Below the pieces are notes generated by a model. The model was given only the letters and a program-made list of their open reading frames with translations. It had not been told where the DNA came from and ran no database searches. From Blastococcus mobilis (GTDB lineage: Bacteria > Actinomycetota > Actinomycetes > Mycobacteriales > Geodermatophilaceae), in assembly GCF_900188025.1 (NCBI RefSeq), contig NZ_FZNO01000011.1, positions 102,535-166,534 of the forward strand: a stretch of 64,000 nucleotides of DNA, written 5' to 3'. The position numbers and the translations under genes are program-made. This document shows, in pieces, positions 6,023 to 16,051 of the stretch. Numbering within the stretch: the first letter of the stretch is position 1; every line of letters starts with the position of its first letter.

Positions 6023-6074
6023 CGTGGCGAGGGTTACGAGATGGCCTCGTTTCGAGCCGACGGACCCAAACTCT

Positions 6075-6088
6075 TGACACGCATGTCA
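6075..6088. promoter_or_regulatory. Operator site 2 (TGACACGCATGTCA)
   Basis: The most symmetric copy: TGACA-N4-TGTCA is a perfect inverted repeat. Its left half also contains TTGACA (6074-6079), a consensus -35 hexamer, so a repressor bound here would occlude RNA polymerase. It lies about 50 bases upstream of the livG-type gene that opens the transporter operon. Confidence 0.65.
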
Positions 6089-6139
6089 GTTGTGCCAGAG
6101 CCTCCTGTGAGCCACCTCACCCGACAGGGGGATCGCTTC

Positions 6140-6955
6140 GTGCAGCCAGCCACCGCGAGCCAGCCGATCGCCGCCGACCGCCCACCGCCGCCCGCCCTGA
6201 GTGCCGAGGGGCTCTCGCTCTCCTTCGGCGGTGTGAAGGCCCTGCAGGACGTCACGATGGAGCTCCGGAAGAGCGAGCTGCTCGCCGTCATCGGGCCGAA
6301 CGGAGCGGGGAAGACCTCCCTGCTGAACTGCCTCACCGGGTTCTACCGGCCTCAGCAGGGCCGGGTCGTCCTCGACGGCGCGAAGGTGATCTCCGGCCTG
6401 CCGACGCACAAGATCGCGCGGCTGGGCGTGAGCCGGACGTTCCAGGGGACGCACCTGTTCACCGGCATGACGGTCCTGGACAACATCATGATCGGCCGCT
6501 ACGCCCACATGCGGACGAACCTGGCGCAGGCGTTCCTCTACGTGCCGTGGACGCGCCGCGAGGAGGTGCAGCACCGCGAGTTCGTCGAGGACATCATCGA
6601 CTTCCTCGAGATCACCACGGTGCGCAAGCGGGTTGTCGGTGAGCTGGGCTACGGCCTGCGGAAGCGGGTGGACCTCGCCCGGGCACTCGCGATGGAGCCC
6701 TCGGTCCTCCTGATGGACGAGCCGATGGCCGGCATGAACCTCGAGGAGAAGGAAGACCTCGCCCGGTTCATCCTCGACGTCCGCGAGGCACGCGGCATCC
6801 CCATCGTCATCGTCGAGCACGACATGGCCGTGGTCATGGACATCGCCGACCGGATCGTCGTCCTCGACTTCGGCCGCAAGATCAGCGAGGGCACTCCTGC
6901 CGAGGTCAGCGGCGACCCGGTCGTCATCAAGGCCTACCTCGGGGAGGCGCATTGA
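6140..6955 (+). CDS. Branched-chain-type ABC transporter ATP-binding protein (LivG-like)
   Basis: A 271-residue ATPase subunit. Walker A is GPNGAGKTS (about residue 52), the LivG-typical insertion follows GVSRTFQGTHLFTGMTVLDN, the signature is GELGYGLRKRVDLARAL, Walker B is VLLMDEPMAGM and the switch histidine is in VIVEHDM. The GTG at 6140 follows AGGGGG at 9 bases and is downstream of operator site 2; an upstream in-frame start at 6041 would place the operator inside the gene and is rejected. It is the first gene of a tight operon with the acyl-CoA synthetase and the other Liv-type subunits. LivG pairs with the LivF-like protein at 12224 as the ATPase pair. Confidence 0.92.
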   Translation: MQPATASQPIAADRPPPPALSAEGLSLSFGGVKALQDVTMELRKSELLAVIGPNGAGKTSLLNCLTGFYRPQQGRVVLDGAKVISGLPTHKIARLGVSRTFQGTHLFTGMTVLDNIMIGRYAHMRTNLAQAFLYVPWTRREEVQHREFVEDIIDFLEITTVRKRVVGELGYGLRKRVDLARALAMEPSVLLMDEPMAGMNLEEKEDLARFILDVREARGIPIVIVEHDMAVVMDIADRIVVLDFGRKISEGTPAEVSGDPVVIKAYLGEAH

Positions 6956-8952
6956 ACGCGCACGGCTCGACCGCGACGGCCACCGCCGCCGAGACCGGGA
7001 CCGAGGCCGCGGTCCGCACCCTGCCGCAGATCCTGCTCGAGCAGGCGCGCCGCCGGCCGACGGAGGTCGCGCAGCGCGAGAAGGACTTCGGGCTGTGGCG
7101 TCCCTACACCTGGTCGGAGGTCGTGTCCCAGGTCCGGAATCTCGCCCTGGGCCTCCGGGAACTGGGGCTCCGGCGGGGCGAGACCGTCGGGATCATCGGC
7201 GAGAACGAGGTCGAGCACTTCTGGACCGAGTACGCGGTCCAGGCCCTCGGCGGCAAGGTCGTCTCGATGTACCCCGACCTCACGTCGGAGGAAGCCAAGT
7301 TCCTGCTCGAGGACTCCGAGGCCGTCGTCGTGGTCGCGGAGGACCAGGAGCAGGTGGACAAGATCCTCGAGATCCTCGACGAGCTGCCGGCGGTCCGCGC
7401 GGTCGTCTACTGGGACGACCGCGGCATGTGGGCCTACCGCGACGCGCGGCTGCGGACCCTCCAGCAGGTCCAGGCCGCGGGGGAGAAGGTGCACGAGGCG
7501 CAGCCCGAGCTCTTCGAGAGCATCGTCGGCGAGGGCGACCCCGGCGACGTCGCCGTCCTCAGCTACACGTCGGGCACCACCGGCCGCCCCAAGGGCGTCG
7601 TGACCACCCACCGGATGCTCCTGGACAACGCGTACCGGGTGCTCGACGCCATCCCGCTCAAGCCTGGGAGCGAGTACCTCAGCTACATCTCCCCGGCGTG
7701 GGCGACCGAGCAGATCTTCGGCGTCACGATGGGGCTGGTCGTTCCCTTCGTCCTCAACTTCCCCGAGGAGCCGGAGACCGTCCGGGAGAACATCCGCGAG
7801 CTGGCCGTTGACGCGCTCGTCTTCAGCCCTCGGCAGTGGGAGAGCCTCGCCGCCTCCGTGCAGGGGAAGATGGCCGAGGCCGGCCGGGTGCGCCGGGCGA
7901 TCTACGGATGGGGTCTGAAGGCCGGGCACACCTACAAGGTCGCCCGCCTCGAAGGCCGGCAGCCGGGTGTGTTGGCGCGGCTGAACCACGCGCTCGCCCA
8001 CCGGGTCGTGCTCCGTCCCGTCCTGGACCAGCTGGGCCTGATCAAGGCCCGCTTCGCCGTCTCCGGCGGCTCCTCCATGGCGCCGGACGTCTTCCGCTTC
8101 TTCCACGCCCTGGGCGTCCCCCTGCGCAACATCTACGGCACCAGCGAGATGGGGCTGTTCACCCTGCACCAGGGCGACACCTACAACGTGGAGACGGTCG
8201 GCCACTGGATGAAGACGCGGCCCGCCATCGGGCCGCCGCTGGAGTCGCGCATCAGCGAGGAGGGCGAGCTCCAGGTGCGCGGCGGCGCAGGCTTCTCCGG
8301 CTACTACAACCAGCCGGAGAAGAGCGCGGCGAAGTACACGCCGGACGGCTGGTTCCAGACCGGCGACGCGGTCACCGTCACCGACGACGGCGAACTGGTC
8401 TTCCTCGAGCGGCTGGAGGACATGCGCCGGCTGGCCACCGGCGTGCCGTTCCCGCCCCAGTTCATCGAGATCCGGCTCCGCTTCAGTCCCTACATCCGGG
8501 ACGTGATGGTGCTCGGTGACGAGACCCGCGACTTCGTGGCGGCGCTGGTCAACATCGACGGCGAGATGATCGGCAACTGGGCCGAGGAGCGGGGGATCGG
8601 CTACACGACCTTCCAGGACCTCTCCCAGAAGCCCCAGGTCCGGGAGCTGATCCGCCGCGAGATCGACCGGATCAGCGAACTGCTGCCCGAGGGCAGTCGA
8701 GTACGGCGCTTCATCAACCTGCCCAAGGAACTCGACGCCGACGAGGGCGAGCTGACCCGCACCCGCAAGCTCCGCCGCGACTTCCTGGAGGTCCGCTACA
8801 AGGACCTCATCGAAGGCATCTACGACGGGAGCTCCACCGTCGACGTCGAGATCCCCATCACCTACCAAGACGGGCGCAAGGGCGTGCTCCGCGCGAAGAC
8901 CGTCGCTACCGACGTCGACCAGCCCGTTCCGGGCGGAGAGGAGGTCCGGTGA
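6952..8952 (+). CDS. Long-chain-type acyl-CoA synthetase (AMP-forming)
   Basis: A 666-residue ANL-superfamily ligase. The phosphate loop SYTSGTTGRPKGVVTTH is near residue 203 and the A5 motif IYGTSEMG near 394; the region DGWFQTGDAV (about 463) carries the ribose-binding Asp. Its length and the N-terminal QREKDFGLWRPYTWSEV resemble FadD15-like very-long-chain synthetases. The start is TTG, overlapping the livG stop (ATTGA), and the stop overlaps livH (GTGA). A ligase nested between transporter subunits implies the imported acid is trapped as a CoA or adenylate at once. Substrate range cannot be read; a bulky or alicyclic acid is plausible. Confidence 0.88.
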   Translation: MNAHGSTATATAAETGTEAAVRTLPQILLEQARRRPTEVAQREKDFGLWRPYTWSEVVSQVRNLALGLRELGLRRGETVGIIGENEVEHFWTEYAVQALGGKVVSMYPDLTSEEAKFLLEDSEAVVVVAEDQEQVDKILEILDELPAVRAVVYWDDRGMWAYRDARLRTLQQVQAAGEKVHEAQPELFESIVGEGDPGDVAVLSYTSGTTGRPKGVVTTHRMLLDNAYRVLDAIPLKPGSEYLSYISPAWATEQIFGVTMGLVVPFVLNFPEEPETVRENIRELAVDALVFSPRQWESLAASVQGKMAEAGRVRRAIYGWGLKAGHTYKVARLEGRQPGVLARLNHALAHRVVLRPVLDQLGLIKARFAVSGGSSMAPDVFRFFHALGVPLRNIYGTSEMGLFTLHQGDTYNVETVGHWMKTRPAIGPPLESRISEEGELQVRGGAGFSGYYNQPEKSAAKYTPDGWFQTGDAVTVTDDGELVFLERLEDMRRLATGVPFPPQFIEIRLRFSPYIRDVMVLGDETRDFVAALVNIDGEMIGNWAEERGIGYTTFQDLSQKPQVRELIRREIDRISELLPEGSRVRRFINLPKELDADEGELTRTRKLRRDFLEVRYKDLIEGIYDGSSTVDVEIPITYQDGRKGVLRAKTVATDVDQPVPGGEEVR

Positions 8953-9833
8953 TCCAGCTCATCGAGTACGCGCTGAACGGGGCGCTGCTAGGCCTGTTGT
9001 ACGCGCTCATCGCCATGGGCTTCGTGGTGATCTACCGAGCATCGAAGGTCTTCAACTTCGCCCAGGGCGAGCTGGTGGTGGTCGGCGCCTTCCTCGTCTG
9101 GTTCTTCACCCTCGACCTCGGCCTGCCGCTCTACGTGGGCCTGGCGCTGGCGCTCGCGGGCGCGGCGATCTTCGGGCTCGTCATCGAGCCCCTGCTGTTC
9201 CGGCGCCTGGTGGGGCAGTCCACCTTCGCGATGGTCATGGTGACGATCGGCCTGCTGATCCTGCTGCGCGGGCTGGTCCTCGTGATCTTCGGGCCGTCGG
9301 TCCGTCCCTTCCCGGCACTCATCTCCACGAGCCCGGTGAACATCGGGGACATCACGCTCAACCGGGGCCTGCTCTTCGGCGGGATCTTCACGATCGTGCT
9401 CGCGATCGGCGTCTCCCTGTACTTCTCGCGGACCCGGCCCGGACTGCGCATGACGGTGGTCGCGGAGGACCACCAGATCGCCCAGTCCATGGGCATCTCC
9501 GTCCGGCGGTCCATCGCCTACGCCTGGGCCATGGGCATGGTGCTCTCGACGTTGGCCGCCGTGTTCTACCTGAACGGCAAATCGGTCACCTTCCTGGTCT
9601 CCGAGATCGGTTTCGCGGCGCTCCCCGTGGCGCTGCTGGCCGGCCTGGAGTCGGTGGGTGGCCTTATCCCGGCCGGGATCATCGTCGGGGTGGCCCAGGG
9701 GCTCGCCGCCGGCTACATCGACCCGCTCATCGGCGGGAGTTTCTCGGCCGTCTTCCCGTACCTCGTCATGGTGACCATTCTTTTCCTCCGGCCGTCGGGT
9801 CTCTTCGGCTGGCGGATCGTCGAGAGGGTGTAG
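8949..9833 (+). CDS. Branched-chain-type ABC transporter permease (LivH-like)
   Basis: A 294-residue membrane protein with about eight hydrophobic segments. YALNGALLGLLYALIAMGF at the N-terminus and the conserved KVFNFAQGELVVVGAF are the LivH hallmarks, as is ALPVALLAGLESVGG (about 224-238) before the C-terminal helices. The GTG overlaps the synthetase stop. It forms the translocation channel with the LivM-like protein that starts at the very next base after its stop. Confidence 0.92.
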   Translation: MIQLIEYALNGALLGLLYALIAMGFVVIYRASKVFNFAQGELVVVGAFLVWFFTLDLGLPLYVGLALALAGAAIFGLVIEPLLFRRLVGQSTFAMVMVTIGLLILLRGLVLVIFGPSVRPFPALISTSPVNIGDITLNRGLLFGGIFTIVLAIGVSLYFSRTRPGLRMTVVAEDHQIAQSMGISVRRSIAYAWAMGMVLSTLAAVFYLNGKSVTFLVSEIGFAALPVALLAGLESVGGLIPAGIIVGVAQGLAAGYIDPLIGGSFSAVFPYLVMVTILFLRPSGLFGWRIVERV

Positions 9834-10892
9834 ATGTCCATGCAGCCGGCGGGCGTCTTCGCCCAGAGCTACGTGCGGGACATGGCGATATTCCGCACCT
9901 GGAAGCAGGGACTCGCCCTGGGCATCTTCCTGCTGGCACTGCTCCTCGTCCCCGCAGTGCTCGGTGCCCGCTACGTCGCCATCGCCAACATCATGCTGAT
10001 CACCGCGGTCGTGGTCCTCGGACTGCAGATCACGACCGGCTTCGCGGGGCAGGTGAACCTGGGTCAGGCGGCATTCATGGGAATGGGTGCCTACACGGCC
10101 GGGGCGTTGTCCTCCGGGCAGCAGTGGCCGTTCCTGGTCACGGTCCCGATCGCGGGCATCGTGGCGGCCCTGTTCGGCGCCATCTTCGGACTGGCGGCCG
10201 TCCGGATCCGCGGCTTCTACCTCGCGTTGACGACCATCGCCGCGCAGTTCATCTTCGTGTTCGCCGTCCTGAACCTGCCCACGTCCTGGACCGGCGGGGC
10301 GCAGGGCCTGCGCGTCGAGACGGCGTCGATCTTCGGCTTCGTGTTCAACACCGACAACCGCATGTACTACCTGATCCTCGCGATCACGGCGATCATGACG
10401 ATCGGGGCCTACGGGATCGTGCGGAGCCGGCACGGGCGCGCCTTCGTCGCCGTCCGGGACGACGACCTGGCGGCCGGCTTCACCGGCGTGAACGTGGTGG
10501 GCACGAAGGCGACGGCGTTCTTCGTCGGAGCGTTCTACGCCGGCGTCGGTGGTGCGCTCTGGGCCTACTACATCCGGTTCGTCTCCGCCGACCAGTTCAC
10601 CTTGTTCAACTCGGTCTACTACATGGGAATGGTCATCGTCGGCGGCCTGGGTTCCATCGCGGGCGCATTCGTGGGCGTGTTCCTGATCCGCGCCGCCCAG
10701 GAGATCCTCACCGCCGTCGGCCCCTCGATCGCCGACGTGTTCCCGGCGCTCGGCAGCAGCGTCGTCTTCGCCAGCGTGAACATCGTCCTGGGCGCGGCGA
10801 TCGCACTGATGCTCATCCTCGAACCCCGCGGCGTGATGCACCGCTACAACGTCCTCAAACGCGCCTACCGATTGTGGCCCTATCCGCATTAG
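9834..10892 (+). CDS. Branched-chain-type ABC transporter permease (LivM-like)
   Basis: A 352-residue permease. The family signature TGFAGQVNLGQAAFMGMGAY (about residues 65-84) and the later KATAFFVGAFYAGVGGALWA and MGMVIVGGLGSIAGAFVG place it in the LivM group. About nine hydrophobic segments. It starts directly after the LivH stop with no spacer, so the two permeases are probably translated as a pair. It is followed by a 66-base gap and the binding protein. Confidence 0.92.
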   Translation: MSMQPAGVFAQSYVRDMAIFRTWKQGLALGIFLLALLLVPAVLGARYVAIANIMLITAVVVLGLQITTGFAGQVNLGQAAFMGMGAYTAGALSSGQQWPFLVTVPIAGIVAALFGAIFGLAAVRIRGFYLALTTIAAQFIFVFAVLNLPTSWTGGAQGLRVETASIFGFVFNTDNRMYYLILAITAIMTIGAYGIVRSRHGRAFVAVRDDDLAAGFTGVNVVGTKATAFFVGAFYAGVGGALWAYYIRFVSADQFTLFNSVYYMGMVIVGGLGSIAGAFVGVFLIRAAQEILTAVGPSIADVFPALGSSVVFASVNIVLGAAIALMLILEPRGVMHRYNVLKRAYRLWPYPH

Positions 10893-10958
10893 CCGGGCCC
10901 ACCTGTCCGTCGCTCCTCCGATCCGCATCCTGGCTACCTCCTAGAGATGGAGAAAGAA

Positions 10959-12230
10959 ATGGCGAGCAAGAGAAACGGCCGTGTCCTCGCGGCCTCCGTG
11001 GCGGCGGCAACCCTGCTCACCGCCTGCGGCGGCGACGACGAGGGCGGTGGCGGCGGTGGCGGCGGCGAGGGGGCGTCGGGGGGCGCGACCTACAACCAGG
11101 CGTGGCTGGTCGACTTCTCCGGGCCGTACGCCGACGTCTACGACGAACTGCAGGCGGCCCGCGAGGCGACCAACGAGTGGTGGAACGACCAGGTGGGCAG
11201 CGAGATCGGCGTCCAGCTGTCGGGCGAGGTGTACGACCACCGCTACGACGCCGCCCAGGTCGCGAGCCTCTGGCCGGGCATCCTCTCCGAGATCCAGCCG
11301 ATCATGGCGATGGGCGTCGGCGGTCCCGACGTCGCCGCCCTCCAGCAGCGGCTGCCCAGCGACAAGGTGCCGATGCTGATGAACACGGCCGGCTACGGCT
11401 ACGCCTGGGAGCCCGACCAGTGGGTGTTCAACCCACGGGCCACCTACGTCCACGAGGCCGCCGGTTTCGTCGACTGGTTCAAGGAGGCCCAGAAGATCGA
11501 CGGGCCGGTGAAGGTCGCCATGATCTCCTCCGAGGCGTCCCCCGCCTACGTGGACATGGTCGACGGCATCGAGGGCTTCGCGGAGGCCAACCCGGACGTG
11601 GCCGAGGTGGTCGCGGTCGAGTTCGCCGAGGTGCAGCCGGCCGACCTGAGCAGCCAGGTGCGCCGGATCGTGGGCGCCGAGGCGGACGTGATCCTCATCC
11701 AGACCAACACCACGCAGGCCGTCGTCACCATGCAGGCCCTCGAGTCGCTCAACCAGGACATCCCGATCATGTTGAGCTCGCACAACAGCCTGCAGGCCAC
11801 GGCCGACGCCGCCGGTGGGCTGGAGAAGCTCGAGGGCGACTTCGAGTCGTTCGGCTTCGTCGTCCCCGCCGAGGAAGAGGGCGAGGCGTACGAGTTCTAC
11901 AAGATGCTGACCGAGGACTACGGCCTCGAGGCGGAGTGGACGGTGCCGACGGTCCAGGGCATCGCGCACCAGCTGTACGCCAACCGGGTCGTCGAGCAGG
12001 CGGTCGAGATGGTGGGTGCCGAGAACCTCACCGGCCAGGCCATCTACGACGCGATCCTCGAGGTCCAGCTGACCTCCGAGGACCTGTTCGGGTTCCTGCC
12101 CGACCTCGACTGGACGCCGGAGGCGCCGTTCCCGACCAGCGGGCTCACCACCAGCATCGGGACGGTGGCCGACGGCACGTACGCGCGCGCCGAGCTCAAC
12201 CACGAGATCCCGGAGCTCGAGAAGTGGTAG
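10959..12230 (+). CDS. ABC transporter substrate-binding lipoprotein (LivK/periplasmic-binding-protein type 1)
   Basis: A 423-residue binding protein. The signal peptide ends in a lipobox LLTAC (about residues 17-21), followed by an acidic/glycine-rich linker, so it is anchored outside the membrane. The mature part has the type I bilobed fold (QAWLVDFSGPYADVYDELQA near 45). The ATG at 10959 sits 6 bases after GGAGAAAG and is preferred to the in-frame ATG at 10947. Its stop is within the start region of the next gene. The ligand is not known; amide/branched-chain binding proteins of this fold in actinobacterial and alpha-proteobacterial catabolic clusters often take aromatic or alicyclic acids. 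Confidence 0.9.
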   Translation: MASKRNGRVLAASVAAATLLTACGGDDEGGGGGGGGEGASGGATYNQAWLVDFSGPYADVYDELQAAREATNEWWNDQVGSEIGVQLSGEVYDHRYDAAQVASLWPGILSEIQPIMAMGVGGPDVAALQQRLPSDKVPMLMNTAGYGYAWEPDQWVFNPRATYVHEAAGFVDWFKEAQKIDGPVKVAMISSEASPAYVDMVDGIEGFAEANPDVAEVVAVEFAEVQPADLSSQVRRIVGAEADVILIQTNTTQAVVTMQALESLNQDIPIMLSSHNSLQATADAAGGLEKLEGDFESFGFVVPAEEEGEAYEFYKMLTEDYGLEAEWTVPTVQGIAHQLYANRVVEQAVEMVGAENLTGQAIYDAILEVQLTSEDLFGFLPDLDWTPEAPFPTSGLTTSIGTVADGTYARAELNHEIPELEKW

Positions 12231-13114
12231 CAGGTCCCGCGGCACGGTCCGGGGGTGCCCTCGCCGAGGGCGCCCCCGGGTCGGCCCCGTCCACGGCTGA
12301 CCAGGGCGGCCCCGGCGGGTCGCCGCTCCTCGAGCTCAGCAACGTCGAGGTGACCTACAGCGGGGTCATCCTGGTCCTCAAGGGCATCAACATCACGGTG
12401 CCCCAGCGGGGCTGCGTGGCGCTCCTGGGCCCCAACGGCGCCGGCAAGAGCACCACCCTCAAGGCGGTCTCGGGCGTGCTCAAGACCGAGGAGGGCCTCG
12501 TCAGCGCCGGCCAGGTGCGCTTCGCCGGCGAGCGGATCGACACGCTGGCGGCCGAGCGGACCGTCCGCAAGGGCATCCTGCACGTGATGGAGGGCCGCAA
12601 GGTCCTCGAGCACATGACGGTCGAGCAGAACCTCGTGGCCGGTGGGCACCTGCAGCGGAGCAAGGACGCCAAGGAGTCGCTCGAGCTGACCTACGAGTAC
12701 TTCCCGCGGCTGGCCGACCTGCGCGGCCGGACGTCCGGTTACCTCTCCGGCGGCGAGCAGCAGATGCTCGTCATCGGCCGCGCGCTCATGGCCAGGCCGA
12801 AGCTCATGATGATCGACGAGCCGTCCCTCGGCCTGGCGCCGCTCATGGTCGAGGAGATCTTCTCGATCCTGCACCGGCTCCGGCAGGAGGACCTGGCGCT
12901 GGTGATCGTGGAGCAGAACACCGCCGCGGCTCTGGCGCTGGCCGACTACGGGTACGTCCTGGACAACGGCCGCATCGTGCTGGACGGCACGGCCGAGAGC
13001 CTGCGGTCCAACGAGGACATCCGCGAGTTCTACCTGGGCCTCGGCGCCACGGGGGAGCGCAAGAGCTTCCGCGACATCAAGCACTACCGCCGCCGGAAGC
13101 GGTGGCTGGGGTGA
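12224..13114 (+). CDS. Branched-chain-type ABC transporter ATP-binding protein (LivF-like)
   Basis: A 296-residue ATPase. Walker A is GPNGAGKST (about 67), the signature is SGYLSGGEQQMLVIGRAL, Walker B is LMMIDEPSLGL and the H-loop position reads LVIVEQN, as normal for LivF (Gln in place of His). It has an unusual N-terminal extension of about 35 Gly/Ala/Pro-rich residues before the domain. The GTG at 12224 overlaps the binding-protein stop and has GGAG 8 bases upstream. The stop overlaps the GTG of the selenoprotein-like gene (GTGA). It completes a full ABC importer from 6140 to 13114. Confidence 0.9.
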   Translation: MVAGPAARSGGALAEGAPGSAPSTADQGGPGGSPLLELSNVEVTYSGVILVLKGINITVPQRGCVALLGPNGAGKSTTLKAVSGVLKTEEGLVSAGQVRFAGERIDTLAAERTVRKGILHVMEGRKVLEHMTVEQNLVAGGHLQRSKDAKESLELTYEYFPRLADLRGRTSGYLSGGEQQMLVIGRALMARPKLMMIDEPSLGLAPLMVEEIFSILHRLRQEDLALVIVEQNTAAALALADYGYVLDNGRIVLDGTAESLRSNEDIREFYLGLGATGERKSFRDIKHYRRRKRWLG

Positions 13115-14033
13115 GCCGCGACGGCGGGGCCGGCGGCGACCGGGATCCGATCGACTACATCGCCCGCACGCGGGACACGTACACCAAGCTGGGCTACCAG
13201 CCCTATGCGTGGGTGCACAGCGACGAGGACCCGCCCATGGCGGAGCTTTCGAAGCCGCTGTCGGAGTGCCGGCTCGGCCTCGCCTCCTCTGGTGGCGTGT
13301 ACCGCGTCGGTCAGGTGGCCTTCCACTAAAGGACGACACGTCCTTCCGGGCGATCGACACGTCGGTGCCGACCTCGGAGCTCCGGGTCACGCACTTCGCG
13401 TACGACACGACGGATGCGCGCCGCGATCCCAACTGCGTCCTGCCGCTGGACCCGCTGCGGGACCTCGTGTCGGAGGGGCGGATCGGAGCGCTCGCGCCCA
13501 CCGCGTTCGGTTGCATGGGCGGCGTCTACTCCGCGCGCCGGGTGCGGGAGCAGCTCGCTCCCGAGCTCGCCCGGCACATGCTGGCGGAGGGGATCGACGC
13601 CGCCCTGCTGGTGCCCGTCTAGCCGGTGTGCCATCAGTCAGTTGGACTGATCGCGCGTCATCTGGAGGCCGCGGGCCTCCCCACGGTCACGCTGTCGAGC
13701 GCGCGGACGATCACCGCCGCCGTCCGTCCGCCGCGGAGCGTGTTCGTGGACTTCCCCCTCGGCCACACGGCGGGACCGCCCGGCGACCCCGCCGCGCAGG
13801 CGGCCGTCGTGAGTGCGGCGCTGGACTGCCTGGAGACGGCCGCGAAGCCGGGGACGATCGTCGATCTCGACCTGACCTGGCCCGGTGGTCCGGGCTGGAA
13901 GCGCGAGGACGCCGGCGAGACCCGGAAGCCCCGCGACGACACACCGCAGTACCAGCACGACGACGACCGGGTGGCCGCCGAGGCTGCGCACCGGGCCGGA
14001 CGCTGCCGCGCCTGCATCGGCATCGACGGCTGA
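13111..14033 (+). CDS. GrdB-like (glycine/betaine/sarcosine reductase B family) selenoprotein; in-frame TAG at the Sec site, plus one frameshift
   Basis: Three open segments together form one protein of about 307 residues. Segment 1 (13111-13326) has DPIDYIARTRDTYTKLGYQP and SGGVYRVGQVAFH, the family N-terminus. After a one-base loss near 13327-13330 the frame continues KDDTSFRAID to ALLVPV. There an in-frame TAG (13620-13622) is followed, in the same frame, by PVCHQSVGLIARHLEAAGLP to a TGA at 14031. In relatives this spot is U or C in a U/C-P-V-C redox motif. A long hairpin starts right after the TAG (see 13625-13659). UAG-encoded selenocysteine has been reported for Geodermatophilus and Blastococcus (Mukai et al. 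2016), so the TAG is probably Sec. The start overlaps the livF stop, making it the last gene of the importer operon. No GrdA/GrdC partner is present, so the reaction is unknown. A C-terminal CRAC could be a second redox pair. The alternative is a pseudogene with two lesions, which the preserved hairpin and downstream frame argue against. Confidence 0.8.
13625..13659 (+). ncRNA. Putative bacterial SECIS hairpin after the UAG codon
   Basis: Directly after the TAG, bases 13625-13639 pair with 13645-13659 in a 15-step helix with one C-C mismatch (13632/13652) and three G-U pairs. The top seven pairs are perfect (ATCAGTC with GACTGAT), closed by a five-base AGTTG loop. The loop begins 17 bases after the codon, within the spacing known for bacterial SECIS elements, and contains an unpaired GU as SelB-binding loops do. 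The codons here (CAT CAG TCA GTT GGA) are unusually poor in third-position G/C, suggesting RNA structure constrains them. Confidence 0.72.
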
Positions 14034-15296: not shown

Positions 15297-16051
15297 CGGG
15301 CTCGTGCGCCGGCAAGGTGGTGCTCGTCGTGGGCGGCACCCGGGGGATCGGGCGCGCCTGCTGCCTGGACCTCGCCCGCGCCGGCGCGACGGTCGTGGTG
15401 TCGGGCCGTTCGGAGAAGAATGCCGAGGAGGTCGCCCAGGCGGTCCGTGACCTCGGCGCCGAGGCGAGCGCGGCCATCCACGACGTCAGTGACGTCGACG
15501 CGACCACGGCGGTGGTCGACGACGTGCACCGGCAGTACGGGCGGATCGACGGGCTGGTGGCCAACGCCGGCATGAACCCGTACTTCATCCGCGCGGAGAA
15601 GCTGACCCCCGAGGAGTGGGACGATTCCATGGCGGTCAACCTCCGGGGCCTGTTCTTCGCGATCCAGGCCGTCGGCAGGCACATGCTGGCGGCGGGCCGC
15701 GGGTCGATCGTCACCATGTCGTCGGTCACCGCGCAGCGCGGGGTCCTGCGCGGTCTGCCGTACGTGGCCGCGAAGGGTGGCCTCGATGCCATGACGCGCA
15801 CGCTCGCCGTCGAGTGGGCCGACCGTGGGGTGCGCGTCAACGGTGTGGCCCCGGGCTACATCGAGACGGACCTGACCGAGGGCGTGCGGCAGAACGACAG
15901 CCTCCGGGACATGGTCCTGCGCAAGGTGCCCGCCGCCCGGTTCGGCGCGGCGGACGAGGTGGCCGCGCTGGCCACCTTCCTGGTCTCCGACGCGGCCGCG
16001 TACATGACCGGCCAGGTCGTCACCGTGGACGGCGGCTACGCCGTCTCCTAG
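15293..16051 (+). CDS. SDR-family oxidoreductase (FabG/3-hydroxyacyl-CoA dehydrogenase type)
   Basis: 252 residues. VGGTRGIGRACCLDLARAGA is the cofactor motif near residue 10; NAGMNPYF near 85, SSVTAQRG near 137 and the catalytic YVAAKGG near 151 complete a classical SDR. The end reads TGQVVTVDGGYAVS, typical of FabG-like enzymes. The GTG at 15293 overlaps the ACAD stop (GTGA). In the operon it would follow ACAD and a hydratase in oxidising a 3-hydroxy-acyl-CoA, before the thiolase next door. Confidence 0.87.
   Translation: MTGSCAGKVVLVVGGTRGIGRACCLDLARAGATVVVSGRSEKNAEEVAQAVRDLGAEASAAIHDVSDVDATTAVVDDVHRQYGRIDGLVANAGMNPYFIRAEKLTPEEWDDSMAVNLRGLFFAIQAVGRHMLAAGRGSIVTMSSVTAQRGVLRGLPYVAAKGGLDAMTRTLAVEWADRGVRVNGVAPGYIETDLTEGVRQNDSLRDMVLRKVPAARFGAADEVAALATFLVSDAAAYMTGQVVTVDGGYAVS

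Follow-up and report, generated by a model that had tools for sequence, protein, structure and literature searches.

The in-frame TAG at position 13620 of a 64,000-nucleotide stretch of Blastococcus mobilis DNA (the window; G000:C65:102535-166534, from a genome in 88 contigs) is very probably a selenocysteine (Sec) codon in the gene of a PrdB/GrdB-like protein with a one-base N-terminal deletion, and, judging from the sequence, it would be read by tRNA-Sec(CUA) and SelB at a SECIS-like hairpin. The first-pass annotation had proposed UAG as selenocysteine here, and the same reading is now supported by the presence of tRNA-Sec(CUA) and of selA, selB and selD in the genome, by relatives with Cys or UGA at this site, by a covarying hairpin and by a formate dehydrogenase gene with an in-frame TAG.

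The use of UAG as a Sec codon in Geodermatophilaceae is already published: the excerpt of PMC5330540 considered here gives, after Mukai et al. (2016, doi 10.1002/anie.201511657), the tRNA-Sec anticodon CUA in three genomes, names formate dehydrogenases and UGSC-motif selenoproteins, and adds AhpC of B. saxobsidens as a UAG selenoprotein. The genome resembles this system in having a tRNA-Sec(CUA), in-frame UAG at Sec sites and a UAG formate dehydrogenase, but the window protein is of the PrdB/GrdB type, which is not among the UAG examples (formate dehydrogenase, UGSC-motif proteins, AhpC) named in that excerpt.

Reading frames of the gene

The features of the window on which the analysis rests are the following.

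6041..13114, + strand: branched-chain-type ABC importer genes livG, livH, livM, livK and livF and an AMP-binding acyl-CoA ligase gene, upstream
13111..13326, + strand: N-terminal part of the PrdB/GrdB-like gene (frame 1, 72 codons; from translation and alignment to B. tunisiensis)
13327..13329, + strand: TAA closing frame 1, where one base present in intact relatives is missing
13329..13619, + strand: central protein part (frame 3; PrdB model match)
13620..13622, + strand: in-frame UAG, predicted Sec codon, the U of VPV-U-PVCHQS (from column comparison of 56 readable named loci)
13623..14030, + strand: C-terminal protein part downstream of the UAG (PrdB model match, dN/dS)
13625..13659, + strand: SECIS-like hairpin, core 13628-13656, apical loop 13640-13644 (AGUUG) (folding, covariation, partial loss in Cys relatives)

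As the first-pass annotation had stated, the frame is identical on the two sides of the TAG, with 13329-13619 and 13623-14030 open in one shared frame that ends at the gene stop, TGA 14031-14033. A single conserved protein spans the codon (the PrdB model matches residues 41-220 of the read-through product, E 1e-38, and PF07355 gives 41 bits), and TAG-CCG-GTG-TGC at 13620-13631 of the + strand puts the TAG at the start of the U/C-P-V-C motif. The continuous frame from 13111 that had been assumed is not borne out by the sequence as assembled: 13111-13326, which overlaps the livF stop, lies in frame 1 and ends at the TAA at 13327, and the part preceding the TAG lies in frame 3.

TAG doubles as an ordinary stop nearby, as had also been pointed out: it ends livH, livM, livK and the SDR gene whose end is at 16051. 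Recoding is not proven by sequence that looks coding on either side of a TAG, since four TAGs of the window pass this test and three of them are ordinary gene ends. At 9831-9836 the livH TAG and the livM ATG abut in one frame with coding-like sequence on both sides, which mimics a recoded stop.

The one-base deletion and selection across the gene

In the alignment with B. tunisiensis the window copy is one base short at the 13327 junction, and it is the lack of this base that leaves 13111-13326 out of frame with the remainder. B. tunisiensis DSM 46838, which is of the same genus as the window and was taken as genome G038 (protein 100% identical), has a gene open from its start to the TAG; the junction is likewise intact in database proteins P0003 and P0005, making three relatives with the base. 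The deletion is the sole lesion seen and lies outside any homopolymer. Apart from the Sec codon, the window gene is thus interrupted by the TAA at 13327 that follows the deletion; translation from 13111 would end there, and for a full-length protein to be produced the deletion would have to be an error of the assembly. On this evidence the gene appears to be either freshly broken in the strain or misassembled. A real deletion would mean that the window strain has recently lost the gene.

In the comparison with B. tunisiensis, dN/dS comes to 0.06 in the N-terminal part (taken from 13153 onward), 0.12 in the middle part and 0.19 past the TAG. Twenty-four consecutive codons at 13593-13664, the TAG included, are identical in the two species, while 87 of the 268 other aligned codons differ (a count made without the broken codon and the 14 codons at the start); in 20,000 shuffles a run as good was found at the TAG in a fraction of 0.00145 and anywhere in 0.017. 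The value of 0.19 past the TAG together with the identical codons points to a post-TAG part that is translated and selected in this lineage.

The chances appear about even that the window copy is a fresh pseudogene with a real deletion, its UAG, hairpin and sel genes being intact relics or serving others such as the formate dehydrogenase. The UAG would then be a Sec codon in the relatives that is no longer reached here, and at the level of the family this is compatible with the best explanation. The deletion is a single, non-homopolymeric lesion in a gene that is intact in relatives; 12 adjacent window genes contain no internal stops, so that the assembly there is not riddled with indels; and close orthologues are found in just 2 of 112 family genomes, which makes losses unsurprising. 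What speaks against a pseudogene is that dN/dS is low both before and after the break and that 24 codons at the TAG are unchanged, with no trace of relaxed selection; this also fits an assembly error.

The Sec column in relatives

An alignment to Cys and UGA relatives had been proposed as a check on the Sec codon. A scan of named genomes yielded 57 loci, one of which is cut off before the Sec column; in the 56 readable ones the column holds TGA (51), TGC (3), TGT (1) and TAG (1, B. tunisiensis), that is, TGA in 51 of 56 and Cys codons in 4 of 56. The nearest named relative of the window gene is B. tunisiensis, a member of the window's own genus, and the guess that the DNA comes from Geodermatophilaceae was therefore right. 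Among the matches listed (120 of 927), 31 database proteins were aligned; 29 have Cys at the column and two have Thr. The two with Thr at the active column, P0004 and P0006 (alignment A3), are otherwise well conserved. In a tree of 64 proteins, four Blastococcus-type rows cluster at 97/100 and are placed, with weak values of 88/86, beside five TGA rows from Acidimicrobiia/Acidimicrobiales.

P0003 and P0005, of 172 residues each, terminate exactly before the Sec codon and were thus annotated as though it were a stop, just as it had been predicted that automatic annotation would split the gene. The source name of P0003 is Nocardiopsis eucommiae and the protein is 94% identical to that of B. tunisiensis; this record comes either from a misnamed or contaminated genome or from a recent transfer.

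That the UAG is an ordinary stop followed by a separate or dead frame is very improbable, even though other genes of the window do end at TAG: the family continues past the codon in all 56 readable named relatives and in the 31 aligned database proteins, the stretch downstream of the TAG is under purifying selection, and the gene has a covarying hairpin next to the codon and a tRNA-Sec(CUA) in the same genome. Programmed frameshifting at 13327, which would join the two frames and place two recoding events in one gene, could account for conserved protein in both frames flanking the junction; it is highly improbable, given that three relatives have no frame change at the junction and that a slippery heptamer is not evident there by eye.

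The SECIS-like hairpin

The consensus of bacterial SECIS elements is a stem-loop shortly past the codon with a G in its apical loop. Both are found here, the AGUUG loop beginning at the 18th base past the UAG; apical guanosines are also mentioned in a legend of PMC2398784. Three folded stretches at the hairpin gave z of -2.2, -2.5 and -3.4, the value of -2.5 belonging to the hairpin at 13625-13659 (-17.2 kcal/mol) and that of -3.4 to its core.

Covariation was counted over 11 pairs in 53 sequences (the window, B. tunisiensis and 51 TGA relatives), 51 of them distinct, and 84.8% of the cells pair. Cells changed on both sides number 38, compared with 16.4 +/- 2.6 in shuffles (none of 500 as high) and 0-12 in slid versions of the hairpin. 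None of the distinct rows breaks pair 18-28, for which 44 of the 51 have GC and 7 have AU; at the Gln/Leu wobble pair 44 rows have the codons CAG-CTG and 7 have CAA-TTG, a synonymous change in both codons. Two of the five measures of pairing do not rise above the shuffles: the number of pairs with a both-sided change (4 vs 3.5 for the shuffles; 283 of 500) and that of further pair types (7 vs 8.3). Of the 51 rows, 42 leave the outermost pair open. The four Cys relatives, placed in the tree as two pairs of close neighbors, all have three broken inner pairs, and in them the hairpin is partly lost. Compensatory pairing and partial loss in Cys relatives are thus both seen, the latter in four rows.

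Selenocysteine decoding machinery

The search of the genome for a tRNA-Sec with a CUA anticodon and for selA, selB and selD, also put forward by the first-pass annotation, found all four. The tRNA-Sec gene at G000:C65:81524-81615 matches RF01852 at 67 bits (cut-off 47) and has the anticodon loop CUCUAAA, in which ARAGORN reads cta under the label 'tRNA-Pyl'. It is adjoined by selD (C65:79811-80818, - strand; TIGR00476, 385 bits), selA (C65:81651-82961, with the start position of our choice; TIGR00474, 423 bits) and selB (C65:82958-84724; TIGR00475, 288 bits), each over its cut-off; this cluster lies 34.5 kb upstream of the TAG on the same contig. A formate dehydrogenase gene of the same genome has an in-frame TAG, ENQARI-TAG-HSATVPGLGASFGRGG, at what we take to be the usual Sec position of these enzymes. 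Apart from the ARAGORN label, nothing favors pyrrolysine as the meaning of the UAG, and the probability of this reading is next to nil, since the tRNA scores 67 bits with RF01852 and adjoins selA and selB, the best PylS match in this genome has just 22 bits vs the cut-off of 178 (1 of 14 control genomes is over it), and the TAG column is occupied by UGA or Cys codons in relatives.

For the UAG as a Sec codon, the following course of decoding can be proposed. SelA would charge tRNA-Sec(CUA) with Sec, and SelB would deliver the charged tRNA to a UAG only where the hairpin is present. With the action of SelB limited to hairpin sites, the TAGs of livH, livM and livK would go on serving as stops.

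Codons and anticodons across Geodermatophilaceae

The survey of the family covered 112 genomes, 96 of them of good quality, and found tRNA-Sec in 108, including all 96. The 110 tRNA-Sec genes read have the anticodon CUA in 102 cases and UCA in 8; UCA is the sole anticodon in seven genomes with a tRNA-Sec match (genera g5, g6 and g7) and belongs to an extra copy in G058. In G036, an incomplete genome, contigs C168 and C25 each hold a CUA tRNA-Sec gene, perhaps from a duplicated assembly.

Relatives of the window protein are present in 7 of the 112 genomes, and B. tunisiensis is the only one with a close orthologue of the window gene. They were found as ten rows, one of which, an out-of-frame part of the B. 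tunisiensis gene, was dropped, leaving nine genes. Seven of these have TAG (one each in G000, G038 and G028, two each in G043 and G104), and all five genomes have a CUA tRNA; the other two, in genus g5, have TGA and come from G066, with a UCA tRNA, and from G067, in which (the genome being 82% complete) tRNA-Sec was not found. Codon and anticodon agree wherever both are seen, TAG genes occurring with CUA and the TGA gene with UCA. One subfamily, grouped by eye, is mixed at the Sec column, with TAG in L023 (G043) and TGA in L020 and L021; the corresponding stretches of these three fold poorly in the same test as above. Two additional, distant GrdB-like subfamilies comprise L017 and L018 (G104, G028) and L019 and L022 (G043, G104). 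These four genes, at 39-46% identity to the window protein, have TAG at the Sec column and, as does the formate dehydrogenase gene, SECIS-like hairpins 3' of the TAG with GU in the loop. The loop has five bases with GU at positions 2-3 in L017, L018, L022 and the formate dehydrogenase gene (GGUCU in the latter); the predicted loop of L019 has seven bases.

The second tRNA-Sec of G058, with the anticodon UCA, is on contig C17 (L193:1173-1263, - strand) and is adjoined by an AhpD-like ORF (L193:1570-2157, + strand; PF02627, 28 bits). This ORF has an in-frame TGA (CFY-TGA-MESHAEFL), and a hairpin loop begins at the 18th base past it. The GC content of the locus is 0.61-0.68, compared with about 0.72 further along, and a transposase-like ORF, recognized by eye, lies alongside. 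G058 also has a tRNA-Sec(CUA), one SelB over the cut-off and a formate dehydrogenase-like match with one in-frame TAG. It is possible that two Sec codons are used in this one bacterium; alternatively, contig C17 may be contamination.

It can be proposed, tentatively and with somewhat less than even confidence, that UAG is a Sec codon private to the family and obligatory for incoming selenoprotein genes, and that G058 bypasses this by having a second, UCA tRNA-Sec next to a UGA-coded AhpD-like gene. The basis for a private codon is that PrdB/GrdB-like genes, in four subfamilies distinguished by eye, have UAG in every CUA-tRNA genome in which they were found, and that two of the subfamilies have kin in other lineages, where the codon is UGA. 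The bypass in G058 would mean that a single SelB serves two Sec codons in one cell.

Protein family and gene neighborhood

The read-through product scores 133 bits with the PrdB model TIGR04483 and the B. tunisiensis protein 163 bits, the latter over profile positions 17-230. The protein scores higher with PrdB than with GrdB models. It is similar in sequence to D-proline reductase PrdB and glycine reductase GrdB, but differs from PrdB and GrdB proper in reaching neither the PrdB cut-off (300) nor those of the GrdB models. With the Pfam family GRDB (PF07355) the window read-through and the B. tunisiensis protein reach 41.3 and 39.8 bits, over the gathering cut-off of 22. Neither GrdA (PF04723) nor PF09338, the family that presumably covers PrdA, the pyruvoyl partner, has a match in the genome, and the controls were equally silent (no control genome over the cut-off for GrdA, none for PF09338). 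A structure model of high confidence yielded no informative match.

Selenoproteins labeled PrdB, with a UxxC motif, were counted in ocean metagenomes, 42 of them in PMC1088965 and 235 in PMC2398784. The window protein is like these in its UxxC motif, its PF07355 match (the label used in PMC2398784), its Sec and Cys homologues and its occurrence outside clostridia; unlike these TGA genes, the window gene has TAG. The new role that the first-pass annotation had drawn from missing GrdA/C partners finds no support: PrdB models outscore those of GrdB, and PrdB selenoproteins had already been counted in these metagenomes.

In the window the gene follows an importer operon, as that annotation had stated, and genes of this operon precede it in B. 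tunisiensis too. The upstream order in the window is livG, acyl-CoA ligase, livH, livM, livK, livF (all assigned by Pfam except livF, a 96% match to B. tunisiensis with its function read from sequence), and in B. tunisiensis it is ligase, livH, livM, livK, livF, the available stretch beginning at the ligase. Among the 57 named loci, only that of B. tunisiensis has at least four importer-operon genes beside the gene; the remaining 56 have at most a single livG-like ATPase of the set. Downstream genes also differ: the window has an acyl-CoA dehydrogenase, an SDR (by eye) and a thiolase, and B. tunisiensis has two large ORFs that resemble, by eye, hydantoinase/oxoprolinase subunits. Since the importer link is confined to the window and, among the named loci, B. 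tunisiensis, and the downstream genes differ, we commit ourselves only to a putative selenol-dependent reductase of a small substrate. The selenol of U-P-V-C would perform a thiol-type reduction of this substrate, which, with low confidence, may be brought in by the adjacent importer.

Implications

Genes of this kind are a practical trap, as they are truncated in databases and a frameshift near a recoded codon is easily missed. The same gene with UGA outside the family and UAG inside it, and with the same hairpin next to the codon, offers a natural comparison of the two codons. If the reading of the UAG as selenocysteine is true, one more protein family would join the few natural UAG-coded selenoproteins, and the meaning of UAG would track the tRNA across a bacterial family.
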